Shown here piece by piece: positions 2,562 through 38,546 of a stretch of DNA of 38,817 nt. The translations under genes were made by a program, and so were the position numbers. Each line of letters opens with the position of its first letter. Within the stretch, counting starts at the first letter, position 1. The notes under the pieces were generated by a model that was not told the origin of the DNA, made no database searches, and saw only the letters and a list, made by a program, of their open reading frames with translations. Origin of the DNA: Ignavibacteria bacterium (GTDB lineage: Bacteria; Bacteroidota; Ignavibacteria; Tepidaquicellales; Tepidaquicellaceae); contig JAFGII010000048.1 of assembly GCA_016929695.1 (NCBI GenBank), forward strand, positions 1 through 38,817, written 5' to 3'.

Positions 2562-2651
2562 ATTGTTTAGCCGATTATTCTTTTCGAATCAGAATTAATG
2601 ACGTTTATTTTTCTTCATCCGATGAAAGGGATTCATTGAACGAGGTATTTG

Positions 2652-3110
2652 TTACTGTATGGCGAGTAAATATCTTTCAATTCTTTCGAGCCATTTTTGT
2701 TCTGCAACCGCATATAATCCGGAGTCATTATAATCACCCGACTTTTCATTCCGGTAGCAAATCAGTTTATCTTCATTGAAATAATAATAATTTCTATAGA
2801 ATTCATTTCCCTCACGTACGTCTTCGGATATATGTCTGACGAATCCGTCTCTGAAAAACAATTCAGCCGAAATATAAGGTTCCTGCATTTCAACAGATAT
2901 TTTAATCATTTGACCGTCAACGTAAAACACAATTAAATTTTCGCCTGTTTCAAGCGCAACATCCATTGTAGTTGCATTTACAAGCATAGTTTCTATTTCC
3001 TGCTTAATATTATCTATTTCGAAAGTCATACTTTCATCACAGGTTTGAGCAGGTAAAAAAGAATATAATGCAATAAAAAGCAAAAACAGAACAGCAGTAA
3101 TTTTTTTCAT
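2652..3110 (-). CDS. Small secreted hypothetical protein
   Basis: I do not recognise this 152-residue protein. It has a clear N-terminal signal peptide (hydrophobic to about residue 20, cleavage probable after LPAQ), then a short helical stretch and a run of alternating hydrophobic and polar residues that suggest beta strands (for example NLIVFYVDGQMIKISVEM). Two cysteines remain after cleavage (TCDES and LICYR). It lies 90 bp upstream of the TPR gene on the same strand and downstream of another small secreted protein, so the three may share a transcript. Function unknown. Confidence 0.7.
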   Translation of the reverse strand: MKKITAVLFLLFIALYSFLPAQTCDESMTFEIDNIKQEIETMLVNATTMDVALETGENLIVFYVDGQMIKISVEMQEPYISAELFFRDGFVRHISEDVREGNEFYRNYYYFNEDKLICYRNEKSGDYNDSGLYAVAEQKWLERIERYLLAIQ

Positions 3111-3232
3111 TGTAATATAATAATTTATTAAAATTAATTTTTTTGTTTCTGAAATACTATCCGTTTATTTAACCGATTAAATCCGCAAATTGTTTCTCGA
3201 AAAATTGTTTTACGGGTATTTATATAAAAATC

Positions 3233-3808
3233 TTATTTTCCTTTTATATATCTGATTTCCGTTTCAGAAGGCACTTCGAAAATTTTATCATTTATTAAAG
3301 CGTTCGGTACAAATTCAAAGGCAACTGTTTCCCTGTTCCGGAGAACATCCACGGCTTTCAATACATAAGTATCGTTATAAACCCAGATTTTATTTCCCTC
3401 TGGACTTTCATATATTTTACACAAGTATCCGATTACAGGTTCACTTCCGACAAGTTCTGTGTATTCTTTACAATTACTTAGGTTCAGGAATTCGATACCG
3501 TTTTTAATTTCATTGTGAGGCTGCTCCAGAGTTATACTTGTAGCAGTTTTTGACCTTTCATCTTCGGTGATAACGATTAATTCCTGTCCCAGCAGAAATG
3601 TTATTTTTTCCCTGTAGGCGTAGTCTTCATTGAGGCATTCTACAATTTTAAACTTGCCGGGTTTGGAGTATATAAGCATACTGTCGCAAACCAGAGCCGA
3701 GCCCGAATACTTTACGATAAAACTGTCAAGCGGTTCCTGAGCACAGGAGTAAGAACTAAAAACTGATACAACCGAAGTAATCAGGATTAAGAATATTATT
3801 TTTTTCAT
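3233..3808 (-). CDS. Secreted protein, possibly LolA/DUF4412-like
   Basis: The 191-residue protein has a signal peptide ending near CAQE. It then shows an alternating strand pattern with a late segment GYLCKIYESPEGNKIWVYND followed by VLKAVDVLRN and VAFEFVPN. That succession (a cofactor-independent beta-rich fold, then a line about an imposed value in a given form) resembles periplasmic LolA-like half-barrels or DUF4412 proteins, but the match is by general shape only. An SCAQ sequence near residue 22 could also be read as a lipobox. It sits between the BNR-type T9SS substrate and the small secreted protein, all on the minus strand. Function not assignable with confidence. Confidence 0.65.
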   Translation of the reverse strand: MKKIIFLILITSVVSVFSSYSCAQEPLDSFIVKYSGSALVCDSMLIYSKPGKFKIVECLNEDYAYREKITFLLGQELIVITEDERSKTATSITLEQPHNEIKNGIEFLNLSNCKEYTELVGSEPVIGYLCKIYESPEGNKIWVYNDTYVLKAVDVLRNRETVAFEFVPNALINDKIFEVPSETEIRYIKGK

Positions 3809-3865
3809 ATATATGATTTAGTTTGATTAATACTTACACTTTTTATTTCATATTTAATAAACTTC

Positions 3866-3889
3866 CTTCCCGAGCCGGAGTCCGGGAAG
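3866..3889. repeat. GC-rich hairpin between two minus-strand genes
   Basis: Arms CTTCCCG and CGGGAAG (7 bp) enclose about ten bases. A six-T run follows on the plus strand, where no gene ends, while the minus-strand side has only short T stretches. It may terminate the upstream minus-strand T9SS gene weakly, or be one of the dispersed GC-rich intergenic hairpins. Confidence 0.4.
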
Positions 3890-3927
3890 AAAGATTTTTT
3901 ATTAATAATTTCCGGTTTTATTATTCA

Positions 3928-5148
3928 TTATTTTATTAATAACAATTTTTTTGTTTCGGAAAAACCATCTGTTTTCAGTCTGTAAAAATACACTCCGCTT
4001 GATAAATTCTCCGCATTGAAATTAGCCTGATAAGTTCCCGGCTGTAATTTTTCATCCACGAGTGTACTTACTTCTCTGCCGAGCAAATCAAATACTTTCA
4101 ACGAAACATTACCTGCATTTGCAATTTTAAATTTAACATTTGTCATTGAATTAAACGGGTTCGGATAGTTCTGTTCAAGTCCAAACTTATTCGGAATTTG
4201 ATTTGAATTTTCAGAATAGAAAGTCAATCCGCCGTTAGTAGTTTTCAGAACAACATTACTGCCTATTGCATAACCGACAGAATCGGAAGCAAAATCAACA
4301 GCCCATAATTCTACTGAAGAGCTCGTTGATATTACACTCCAGTTATCGCCGCCGTTTGTAGTTGCAATTATTTTTCCGCCCTGACCAACCGCAACGGCTT
4401 TCAGGGAATCTATAACATAACAGTCTCTTAAATATCTCGTATCACCGCTTGACTGACTGAACCAGTTAATTCCGCCGTTAGTCGTTTTGATAATTGTTTC
4501 GCCACCGAGATAACCTGCAACAGCCCAACCGGTATTTTCGTTTGCGAACATAACCGAATATAAAGGAGTTGAAATAGTTGTGGATTGCATAAACCAGTTT
4601 TGTCCGCCGTTTGTTGTCTTGATTATTTTCGGTGAACTCGGACCTCCGACAGACCATCCCGTATTCTCGTTTATAAAATATACGGAAAATAATTTGTTCG
4701 CGGTACCACTTGTTTGAGTTGTCCAGTTTATTCCTCCGTTCGTGGTTTTAAAGATTACTTCATTAGAAAAATCTCCGCCTACTACCCAGCCTGTATTTTC
4801 GTTAATGAAAAATACTTCATTAAGTCTGTCCTGTATCCCTGTAGGCTGCTGAGTGAAAGAGCTGCCGTTTATTGTTTTGCCGATGTATCCCGGATACCCA
4901 ACAACCCAGCCTGTTAAATTATTAATAAAAAATATTCCTGTCAGGTTGCCGCCCGAAAGTGAAGACCAGTTGTATCCTCCGTTAGTAGTTTTTTTTGTGA
5001 TTCCGTTCGCAGTTGAAAAGCCGGTGTTTTCGGAAGGGAATGATACAGCGGTATTGCCCTGTGTGGAAATTACAGTCCACTGGCAAATACAATCTTCAAT
5101 ATTCAATGTAAAATGTACAATTAACAGCATTATGAAAACATTTTTCAT
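3928..5148 (-). CDS. T9SS substrate with BNR/Ycf48-like repeats
   Basis: The 406-residue protein begins at the ATG at 5146-5148, which gives a signal peptide (MKNVFIMLLIVHFTLNIEDC). A longer upstream in-frame ATG would only add residues read out of frame from the neighbouring relic gene. The body contains about six copies of a roughly 45-residue repeat with the signature NTGWxVGxxxxxxKTTNGGxNW, typical of beta-propellers of the BNR/Ycf48 type. The C-terminus is a T9SS type A sorting domain (NYPNPFN, then VFDLLGREVSTLVDE, then SSGVYFYR), so the protein should be exported and attached at the cell surface. Its start overlaps the stop of the 54-codon relic as ATGA. The ligand is unknown. Confidence 0.88.
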   Translation of the reverse strand: MKNVFIMLLIVHFTLNIEDCICQWTVISTQGNTAVSFPSENTGFSTANGITKKTTNGGYNWSSLSGGNLTGIFFINNLTGWVVGYPGYIGKTINGSSFTQQPTGIQDRLNEVFFINENTGWVVGGDFSNEVIFKTTNGGINWTTQTSGTANKLFSVYFINENTGWSVGGPSSPKIIKTTNGGQNWFMQSTTISTPLYSVMFANENTGWAVAGYLGGETIIKTTNGGINWFSQSSGDTRYLRDCYVIDSLKAVAVGQGGKIIATTNGGDNWSVISTSSSVELWAVDFASDSVGYAIGSNVVLKTTNGGLTFYSENSNQIPNKFGLEQNYPNPFNSMTNVKFKIANAGNVSLKVFDLLGREVSTLVDEKLQPGTYQANFNAENLSSGVYFYRLKTDGFSETKKLLLIK

Positions 5149-5309
5149 TTCAACAAAATTAATTTTTTCGTTTCGGAAAAACCATCCGTTTTCAATCTGT
5201 AGAAATATATTCCGCTTGACAGATTCTCTGTCCATAGACCTGACTTAGCAAATACATTTGAAGAAGCAGTAGCAATTATAATTATAAAAAATAATATATA
5301 CTTTTTCAA
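5145..5309 (-). CDS. Miniature gene: signal peptide joined directly to a T9SS tail
   Basis: A 54-codon frame starts at TTG (5307-5309) with a textbook signal peptide (KKYILFFIIIIATASSNVFA). After only about ten residues it continues into the last ~27 residues of a T9SS sorting domain (ENLSSGIYFYRLKTDGFSE onward), ending at TGA 5145-5147. That tail matches the tail of the following gene at about 24 of 27 residues and is also close at DNA level. An in-frame TAA lies five codons before the TTG. This looks like the remnant of a T9SS substrate that lost its whole middle by deletion, or a tiny exported peptide. The stop overlaps the next start as ATGA. No ribosome-binding site is obvious. Confidence 0.6.
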   Translation of the reverse strand: MKKYILFFIIIIATASSNVFAKSGLWTENLSSGIYFYRLKTDGFSETKKLILLK

Positions 5310-5429
5310 AACAAATGTATTTTACGTTTAGAAAATTGAATTAATGAATGCCGGTTAAAGAAAAAATCAATCTCTACACACACTTTATTCGATAAGGTAA
5401 TTCTCCCTGTCTCCGTACACATGATAATT

Positions 5430-5852
5430 TTATTGTTTTATGCTATTAAATTTAATTTTTAACAGATTTAAACCTTCATTACTTAATTTTTTTGAAAACG
5501 CTCTGCCCCGCAAAGTTAATACTATATGCCTGCACTCCGGATTTAAATTAAATTCAGTACTTATAATTGTTTTACCTTTGCTGAAAAACTCAAGCAGCCC
5601 GGTATAACCACATTTGTTCTGCGGAACCTCTTCATCGGTGAAAAGGTCTTTGTACTTTTCAATTTCTTCTTTGTTTTCTATAGTGAATATTCTGTCCGGG
5701 CTGCCGATTTTCCCCGTTGTGCTGTCATAGAAATAAATCTTAATTTTATCTGCATCTTTAACTTCTTTTTGAAATATTTCAATCTCTGTATCGGCGCAGG
5801 AGAACAAAATCACAAAACAAATTGCTAAAAGTATAGAGATAGAATGTTTCAT
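5430..5852 (-). CDS. Hypothetical lipoprotein
   Basis: The 140-residue product has a lipoprotein signal peptide with a cysteine at about residue 19 (CFVILFSCAD), so it should be lipid-anchored in an envelope membrane. The mature part alternates charged helical segments with short strands (for example DKIKIYFYDS and IISTEFNLNPECRHIVLTLRG) and has two more cysteines. I recognise no family. Its position upstream of the T9SS relic and BNR gene, all minus strand, is compatible with a cell-surface gene neighbourhood but does not reveal a role. Confidence 0.7.
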   Translation of the reverse strand: MKHSISILLAICFVILFSCADTEIEIFQKEVKDADKIKIYFYDSTTGKIGSPDRIFTIENKEEIEKYKDLFTDEEVPQNKCGYTGLLEFFSKGKTIISTEFNLNPECRHIVLTLRGRAFSKKLSNEGLNLLKIKFNSIKQ

Positions 5853-5910: not shown

Positions 5911-6159
5911 CCCCCCGGCTTCGCCGGGGGTTACTGAAGTTGAACATGCTTCGCAGGTTCTTAAAGCATGATGACAGAGAATGAGTTTGCTTTGCAGGTT
6001 CTGCAAGTATGATGACAGAGAATGAGTCTGCTCCGCAGGTTCTTAAAGTATGATGACAGAGAATGAGTCTGCTCCGCAGGTTTTACAAAGTGGAGGGGGT
6101 GTTCTTTATCCCCCGGCTTCGCCGGGGGGTACTGAAGTTGAACCTGCTTCGCAGGTTCT
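5911..6159. repeat. Composite intergenic repeat: two hairpin modules flanking 41-bp units
   Basis: A module of about 50 bp, made of a CCCCGGCTTCGCCGGGG hairpin then TACTGAAGTTGAAC and TGCTTCGCAGGTTC, occurs in the same orientation at both ends (5911-5961 and 6110-6159). In the second copy GAACCTGC-TTC-GCAGGTTC is a perfect palindrome (6140-6158). Between them lie three full 41-bp tandem units and part of a fourth. The block fills the gap between the lipoprotein and methyltransferase genes. Short open frames across it are by-products of the periodicity. Confidence 0.8.
5948..6090. repeat. 41-bp tandem repeat, three units plus a partial fourth
   Basis: Units begin at 5948, 5989 and 6030, with a partial one at 6071. 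Each starts GCTYYGCAGGTTCT and contains ATGATGACAGAGAATGAGT. Units 2 and 3 are nearly identical and unit 1 is more diverged. There are no unique spacers between units, so this is not a CRISPR array. Confidence 0.8.
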
Positions 6160-8588: not shown

Positions 8589-8772
8589 AAGGTGACAAGG
8601 TGACGAAGTGACAAGGTGACAAGGTGACGAGGTGACGAGGTGACGAGGTGACAAGGTGACGAGGTGACGAGGTGACGAGGCGACAAGGTGACAAAGTGAC
8701 AAGGTGACGAGGTGACAAGGTGACGAGGTTACAAGATGACAAAGTGACAAGGTGACAAGGTGACAAGGTGTC
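8589..8772. repeat. Minisatellite: 23 perfect-period 8-bp units
   Basis: The plus strand reads as 23 consecutive 8-mers of consensus RAGGTGAC with no insertion or deletion. Variation is by substitution only, chiefly A/G at the first base. The final unit, AAGGTGTC (8765-8772), supplies two bases of the SDR stop codon (TGA, complement at 8771-8773). The other end stops 82 bp before the aldehyde dehydrogenase start. Open frames across it (LVTLSPCHL-type peptides) reflect the absence of stops in the unit rather than a gene. Confidence 0.95.
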
Positions 8773-11483: not shown

Positions 11484-11715
11484 GTGGATGGCTAAATGGG
11501 TGGATGGGAAGATGGGTGGATGGGAAGATGGGGAGATGGGTAAATGGGTGGATGGGTGGACGGGTGGATGGGGAGATGGGTGGATGGGGAGATGGGTGGA
11601 AGGGAAGATGAGTGGATGGGAAGATGGGTAAATGGGGGGATGGGTGGATGGGAAGATGGGTGGAAGGGAAGATGGGTGGAAGGGAAGATGGGTAAATGGG
11701 TGGATGGGTAAATGA
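11484..11715. repeat. G-rich minisatellite: 29 perfect-period 8-bp units
   Basis: The plus strand consists of 29 consecutive 8-mers related to GTGGATGG, GAAGATGG and GTAAATGG, without a single insertion or deletion, starting seven bases after the DUF4153 stop. Units often alternate between types. The strand carries many GGG runs spaced by five bases, the usual G-quadruplex-forming pattern, so the mRNA 3' end could fold. The array ends 11 bp before the terminator stem. Confidence 0.95.
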
Positions 11716-37597: not shown

Positions 37598-38455
37598 ATG
37601 AAATATCTGAAAATAGTTTTTTTCTTCCTTTTACCGTTAATAATTCTAGCAGGCTGTTCCTCTTCCGAAAAAACAGATATTAATTACACGGGAATTAAAT
37701 ATGTTAGTGCCAGAACTTATACACCTGTTTTCAATATTCCCGATATATATAAATTTCTTTCGGAGATAGAAGAGGAAATAAAAACCGATAAAAAAGGACT
37801 TATTCCGGAAATAAGTTATATTGCACCTCCCGGGGAAGAGTTTGAAATTATAGGAATAACCAAACAAAATGATCACACAATTTTTAAAATAAAACCTGCC
37901 AATTCCGAAAAAACTTACTATATAGACAGCAGATTTACCGAGCGGTCAGACGGTAAAAAAAATCAGGGCGAGAAGTTATCGAAAGAAGAAATAATTCGAA
38001 ATCTGAAAGCGATGGAAGGATATCCCTATGAATACGGCGGCGCGACAGCAAACGGAGTATATAAATTTGAATCAATGTATGAAATAAAAGGACTAAGAGA
38101 AAAATGGAAACCAAAGGGACTGGATTGCTCGGGACTGATATATCAGGCAACGAACGGCGCAATTCCGAGGAGTTCAAGTGAAATAGTGAAGTACGGAGAA
38201 GGACTTGACATCGAAGGGAAAAAACTTGATGACATTATTGATATGCTTGAGCCGCTGGACATTATAGGATATCCCGGTCACGTATTAATCGTGATAGACA
38301 AAAACAGCGTGATGGAAAGTTCTCCGAAAAAAGGAGTGAGAATACTTCAGACGGAAACACGTATAAAACAACTGATGAAAGACAGGAAGCCGGTTAACGA
38401 TGCTGAAGGCAAAGATAAAAATAAAATTTTCGTAGTGAGAAGGTGGTATAAGTGA
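37598..38455 (+). CDS. NlpC/P60-family lipoprotein (putative peptidoglycan hydrolase)
   Basis: A 285-residue lipid-anchored cell-wall hydrolase candidate. The ATG at 37598 gives a lipoprotein signal with lipobox LAGC (residue 20); the TTG two codons earlier is less likely. Residues ~30-125 are a spacer with a possible SH3-like segment (PPGEEFEIIGITKQNDHTIF). The NlpC/P60 domain follows with the catalytic cysteine in GLDCSGLIYQA, the histidine in YPGHVLIVID and a polar third position in ESSPKKGV. Such enzymes cut the peptide stems of peptidoglycan. The stop codon TGA is itself part of the first unit of the 7-bp minisatellite. Confidence 0.87.
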   Translation: MKYLKIVFFFLLPLIILAGCSSSEKTDINYTGIKYVSARTYTPVFNIPDIYKFLSEIEEEIKTDKKGLIPEISYIAPPGEEFEIIGITKQNDHTIFKIKPANSEKTYYIDSRFTERSDGKKNQGEKLSKEEIIRNLKAMEGYPYEYGGATANGVYKFESMYEIKGLREKWKPKGLDCSGLIYQATNGAIPRSSSEIVKYGEGLDIEGKKLDDIIDMLEPLDIIGYPGHVLIVIDKNSVMESSPKKGVRILQTETRIKQLMKDRKPVNDAEGKDKNKIFVVRRWYK

Positions 38456-38546
38456 CAAGTGGCAAGTGGCAAGTGACAAGTGGCAAGTGGCAAGTGACAA
38501 GTGACAAGTGACAAGTGGCAAGTGACAAGTGGCAAGTGACAAGTGA
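38452..38546. repeat. Minisatellite: 13 perfect-period 7-bp units
   Basis: Thirteen consecutive units of GTGACAA or GTGGCAA (A/G at one position, no insertions or deletions), then a partial GTGA. The first unit contains the TGA stop of the NlpC/P60 gene. The array ends 68 bp before the ATG of the next gene, a probable restriction-modification enzyme. Long minus-strand frames across it are by-products. Confidence 0.95.

Follow-up and report, generated by a model that had tools for sequence, protein, structure and literature searches.

Cargo proteins of the type IX secretion system (T9SS) that bear a type A sorting tail (TIGR04183/PF18962) combine a signal-peptide-like start with a tail ending in an invariant Lys, and 22 tail residues of HBP35 sufficed for a green fluorescent protein (GFP) fusion (PMC4804311, PMC11285876). 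Codirectional genes whose stop and start codons overlap in the four bases ATGA can couple translation in bacteria through termination-reinitiation (PMC6728339). Here we describe a 54-codon frame that has features of both, found on the minus strand directly upstream of a BNR-type T9SS gene in contig JAFGII010000048.1 of an Ignavibacteria bacterium (assembly GCA_016929695.1); the contig stretch analyzed, hereafter the window, comprises 38,817 nucleotides. The frame resembles T9SS type A cargo proteins at both of its ends, including the final Lys, but lacks a cargo and retains no more than roughly the final third of the tail. It likewise shares the codirectional four-base overlap of coupled gene pairs, but here the overlap follows from the codons AAA-TGA, and any coupling is hypothetical. 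Two internally deleted remnants or orphan tails described below, on contig C25 of the same genome and contig C44 of genome G242, also consist of an isolated tail end without cargo, whereas the window frame is still open, begins with a signal-peptide-like stretch, and lies beside a T9SS gene; the C25 remnant has no start, and the G242 frame has no T9SS gene downstream. The 54-codon frame is genuine but not far from ordinary, and in our judgment it is probably a remnant left by the in-frame deletion of the cargo from a T9SS gene.

Anatomy of the 54-codon frame

The complete translation of the frame (5309-5145, minus strand) is MKKYILFFIIIIATASSNVFAKSGLWTENLSSGIYFYRLKTDGFSETKKLILLK, which divides into MKKYILFFIIIIATASSNVFA, KSGLWT, and ENLSSGIYFYRLKTDGFSETKKLILLK. 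Translation could begin only at the TTG at 5309, there being no ATG or GTG in frame. Judged by eye, the putative signal peptide has lysines (KK), a hydrophobic core, and a likely cleavage site, VFA, and the T9SS homology begins abruptly at the Glu-Asn codons, six residues beyond that site and not about ten, as the initial annotation had it. These six residues are all that separates signal peptide from tail, and the 54-mer has no cargo domain; KSGLWT can be likened to the beginning of the mature protein in some BNR genes (AQSAWFELQSG, AQTGWFSV), a resemblance only, and not significant by itself. The NCBIfam T9SS type A profile TIGR04183 matches the 54-mer with 29 bits (cut-off 23) over profile positions 37-70 of 72, and the Pfam profile PF18962 reaches 20.9, below its cut-off of 27, so that a complete C-terminal sorting domain is absent; by analogy with HBP35, the 27-codon tail end would cover roughly the final two strands of that domain. 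The open frame, its translation, and the TIGR04183 match thus bear out the earlier description of an intact minus-strand frame carrying a putative signal peptide and a T9SS tail end.

The tail end also proved, as had been proposed, a close match to the tail of the neighboring BNR gene, in protein (24 of 27 residues) and in DNA (67 of 81 bases, 83%, rising to 88% across the best 68 bases). The DNA match lies far beyond chance (E 3e-18), although its longest exact run is 17 bases, and of the tails compared, none is closer in DNA to either of the two than the other one (next best, 61/81); both contain the uncommon stretch KTDG. All 27 tail residues of the frame occur in intact tails of the same genome, there is no stop inside, and at each of the 3 positions that differ from the BNR tail the frame has one of the two commonest residues.

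Tail junctions and related fusions

The genome to which the window belongs (G000), a draft of 2.78 Mb in 124 contigs, holds at least 150 T9SS tails matching TIGR04183. On its contigs C55 and C108, BNR-type T9SS genes form tandem arrays in which a tail passes by way of ATGA into the signal peptide of the following gene. We examined the stops of 46 distinct full-length tails from this genome, which are not a random sample because the array contigs were chosen on purpose; 21 of the 46 end in TGA, and 20 of these 21 carry ATGA, with AAA as the final Lys codon, 10 of them opening directly onto the next gene. ATGA results whenever TGA comes after AAA, the codon of the invariant final Lys; the overlap is therefore the default of TGA-ending tails, and overlapping the following gene in this way is commonplace in this genome. 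The overlap of the frame's stop with the BNR ATG that the initial annotation reported was confirmed at 5148-5145, the BNR start at 5148 being backed by the start of an orthologue. Compared with the array junctions, that of the window is about 73% alike across the stop/start boundary, over about 150 bases for C55 and 130 for C108; because this similarity crosses the boundary, it favors a gene already in place that lost its cargo, and not a stray tail that was inserted. One BNR/T9SS gene on C55 (L024:7749-9129) has a tail that resumes in another frame past its stop, through a frameshift or an assembly error.

A DNA search of 44 genomes of the order returned no second match spanning both halves of the fusion, and no orthologous 54-codon frame was found in these genomes or at the loci of three BNR orthologues, so that the conservation expected of a leader is not seen. 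Nor was any other such fusion found in the same genome or the order by the patterns tried, which required an MKK-like start 64-94 bases ahead of a G-x-Y-F-Y tail and would miss other starts and spacings. Extended to 391 genomes of the class, the pattern scan produced hits most of which were, by their printed sequence, chance NEK/DEE stretches inside tails; the four signal-peptide-like or membrane-like hits that were opened comprised one fusion and three other proteins. This fusion, on contig C44 of G242 (L181:1767-1943), a distant relative from another family, is a 54-residue frame with a signal-peptide-like start and a T9SS tail end, but it is unrelated and has unrelated neighbors, and its tail scores 17.9 bits with TIGR04183, under the cut-off. 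A hairpin resembling a terminator was noted by eye on its 3′ side. Contig C25 of the window's own genome carries an orphan T9SS tail frame of 47 amino acids (L098:1644-1787) adjoining a truncated DDE transposase (PF01609, 1865-2182), likely a remnant made by an insertion sequence. Together, the C25 tail and the G242 frame suggest that such remnants arise independently and do not represent a conserved minigene. Literature searches for pseudogenes of T9SS cargo, or for naturally occurring T9SS peptides of minimal size, turned up nothing useful.

The locus in relatives

Orthologues of the BNR gene were found in three metagenome-assembled genomes (Chlorobiota/Ignavibacteria), at 76-84% over a 116-residue query, and lie elsewhere in the genome. 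One of them (77-81%) is on L102, a contig identical with G010:C272, and its immediate upstream neighbor is a T9SS BNR gene of full length; this neighbor ends in TAA, is followed by a gap of 55 bases to the orthologue, and is interrupted in the record by undetermined bases. At the other two, the upstream neighbor is a 177-aa gene overlapping the orthologue by ATGA (L101) or a transporter gene overlapping its start (L103). The initial annotation had suggested comparing related genomes for a full-length version: a T9SS gene does stand upstream of the L102 orthologue, but at another locus and beyond a 55-base spacer, and its identity with the ancestor of the window frame is putative. Signal peptides similar to that of the BNR gene recur in C55, C108, and G010. 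The stretch coding for this signal peptide, attgtacattttacattgaatattgaagattg (window 5090-5121), resembles by eye, in reverse complement, a stretch that occurs twice in apparently non-coding DNA of contig C94 (L027:6840-6975).

Table 1. Coordinates of the frame, its parts, and its surroundings in the window
Feature	Position	Strand	Basis or remark
Whole 54-codon frame, beginning at TTG and joining a signal-peptide-like stretch to a T9SS tail end	5145-5309	-	open frame read from the sequence
Signal-peptide-like stretch, 21 codons, AxA-type site VFA	5247-5309	-	by eye from the sequence
KSGLWT, six leftover codons between signal peptide and tail	5229-5246	-	
27-codon end of T9SS type A tail	5148-5228	-	TIGR04183 match and likeness to BNR tail
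ATGA stop/start overlap of the frame with the BNR gene	5145-5148	-	same junction in arrays on C55 and C108
BNR/YCF48-like T9SS gene, 406 aa, downstream neighbor of the frame	3928-5148	-	PF14870 and TIGR04183
Part of BNR tail matching the frame	3931-4011	-	DNA search and alignment
Lineage-specific block: 54-codon frame, BNR gene, 3233-3808, 2652-3110	2562-5429	.	between lipoprotein gene (5430-5852) and TPR gene (1728-2561)

Several genomes of the family keep the gene order ALDH, TPR, short lipoprotein-like gene, Era. The distance between ALDH and TPR is at most 32 bases in both genomes of the same genus, and in relatives that have the upstream lipoprotein gene the TPR gene follows closely. Because the flanking genes are thus adjacent in relatives, the block that holds the frame and the BNR gene is specific to the lineage of the window (Table 1). 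Elsewhere the window contains tandem repeats (8589-8770, 38450-38546, 11484-11709, and 5947-6082; units of 8, 7, 16, and 41 bases), of which the 8-base unit AAGGTGAC and the 7-base unit AAGTGAC are alike.

Origin of the frame and its significance

Under the reading that we prefer, the BNR gene would once have had a T9SS-secreted gene as its immediate upstream neighbor, an arrangement like that of the tandem arrays of the same genome. An internal deletion, by a mechanism that we likewise only infer, would have brought the signal-peptide start of this neighbor and six further codons into frame with the final 27 codons of its tail, the junction of tail, ATGA, and next gene being inherited unchanged. 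Any translation product of the frame would be a cargo-less peptide, about 33 residues long once the signal peptide is removed, and the frame may still hand ribosomes to the BNR start by default. Deletion of the cargo was also the simplest reading of the initial annotation, and it is the one best supported by the tandem arrays, the likeness of the junctions, and the T9SS gene upstream of the L102 orthologue. It builds on what is seen directly, namely the anatomy of the frame, the junction type in common, an orthologue with an intact T9SS gene upstream of it, and a fusion that was not met with again in the genomes searched.

Other observations weigh against it. The full, undeleted gene was present at the exact locus in no genome examined, and the T9SS gene at L102 differs in its contig, its 55-base spacer, and its TAA stop. 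The source of the signal peptide was not traced by DNA searches of the same genome, the genus, and the order or by a search of the family with the 54-mer: that half has no DNA relative in its own genome and gave two weak matches only, G002:C42 and G034:C181, the former rejected as AT-rich non-coding DNA. Finally, the tail is free of the random decay expected of an old relic, though not of a recent one, which means either that the loss is recent, as it may be, or that the frame has been kept. The proposed comparison of synonymous and non-synonymous change, run against the BNR tail, gave a pN/pS of 0.14, a value that speaks neither way for the short frame because it reflects mostly a shared past as intact full genes.

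The main rival to deletion holds that the BNR gene arrived with the tail end of a former neighbor and was inserted beside an unrelated signal-peptide start. That the whole block is missing between the flanking genes of relatives, whose BNR orthologue lies elsewhere, fits such a chimeric join, but the likeness of KSGLWT to the mature start of some BNR genes speaks against it, as do the TPR genes at the locus, whose signal peptides, considered as donors, showed no clear match by eye. We regard this origin as unlikely.

As the tail lacks random decay, there is room for translational coupling or a short exported peptide. The initial annotation had left function open on the strength of the intact frame and the overlap; both turn out to be weak arguments, since an open frame across the join is a one-in-three accident and the ATGA comes from AAA-TGA, yet function is still conceivable. 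In the first form, the frame would be a retained leader whose translation, ending at the ATGA, brings ribosomes to the start codon of the BNR gene whatever its peptide does. The ATGA supplies the stop/start overlap, and because such gene pairs can couple (PMC6728339), coupled translation of the BNR gene is possible; the orthologues at L101 and L103 likewise overlap an unrelated upstream gene, and the undecayed tail would fit. However, any tail ending in AAA-TGA yields ATGA, the L102 orthologue starts past its gap with no overlap, and the frame begins with TTG, so that we consider a leader improbable. Little credence can be given to the second form, a functional mini-peptide exported by Sec and then recognized by the T9SS through its tail end: export is conceivable given the 22 HBP35 residues that sufficed for the GFP fusion (PMC4804311, PMC11285876), and the 27 in-frame tail residues exceed the TIGR04183 cut-off, but the peptide has no cargo, it is known from one genome only, and the single similar frame, in G242, has a poorer tail and unrelated neighbors. 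Nothing found favors either function. It is doubtful that a cargo loss sparing signal peptide, tail end, and ATGA has left a minigene that is kept because it supplies the following gene of the array with ribosomes or because it exports a sorting tail on its own. The collapse of two tandem-repeat genes during assembly, which a draft of 124 contigs with many repeated tails might invite, is very improbable, as the longest exact tail match of 17 bases is short for a collapse and the frame has its own sequence throughout.

Read as a relic of cargo loss, the frame shows how genomes with well over 100 T9SS cargo genes gain and lose members: given the near-uniform bookends of tandem arrays, a gene can lose its cargo and still leave its junction with the next gene in place. 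The ATGA overlaps at T9SS tails are explained without special function. If the frame were expressed and kept, it would allow the minimal T9SS export signal, hitherto studied by an engineered GFP fusion, to be tested on a natural example.
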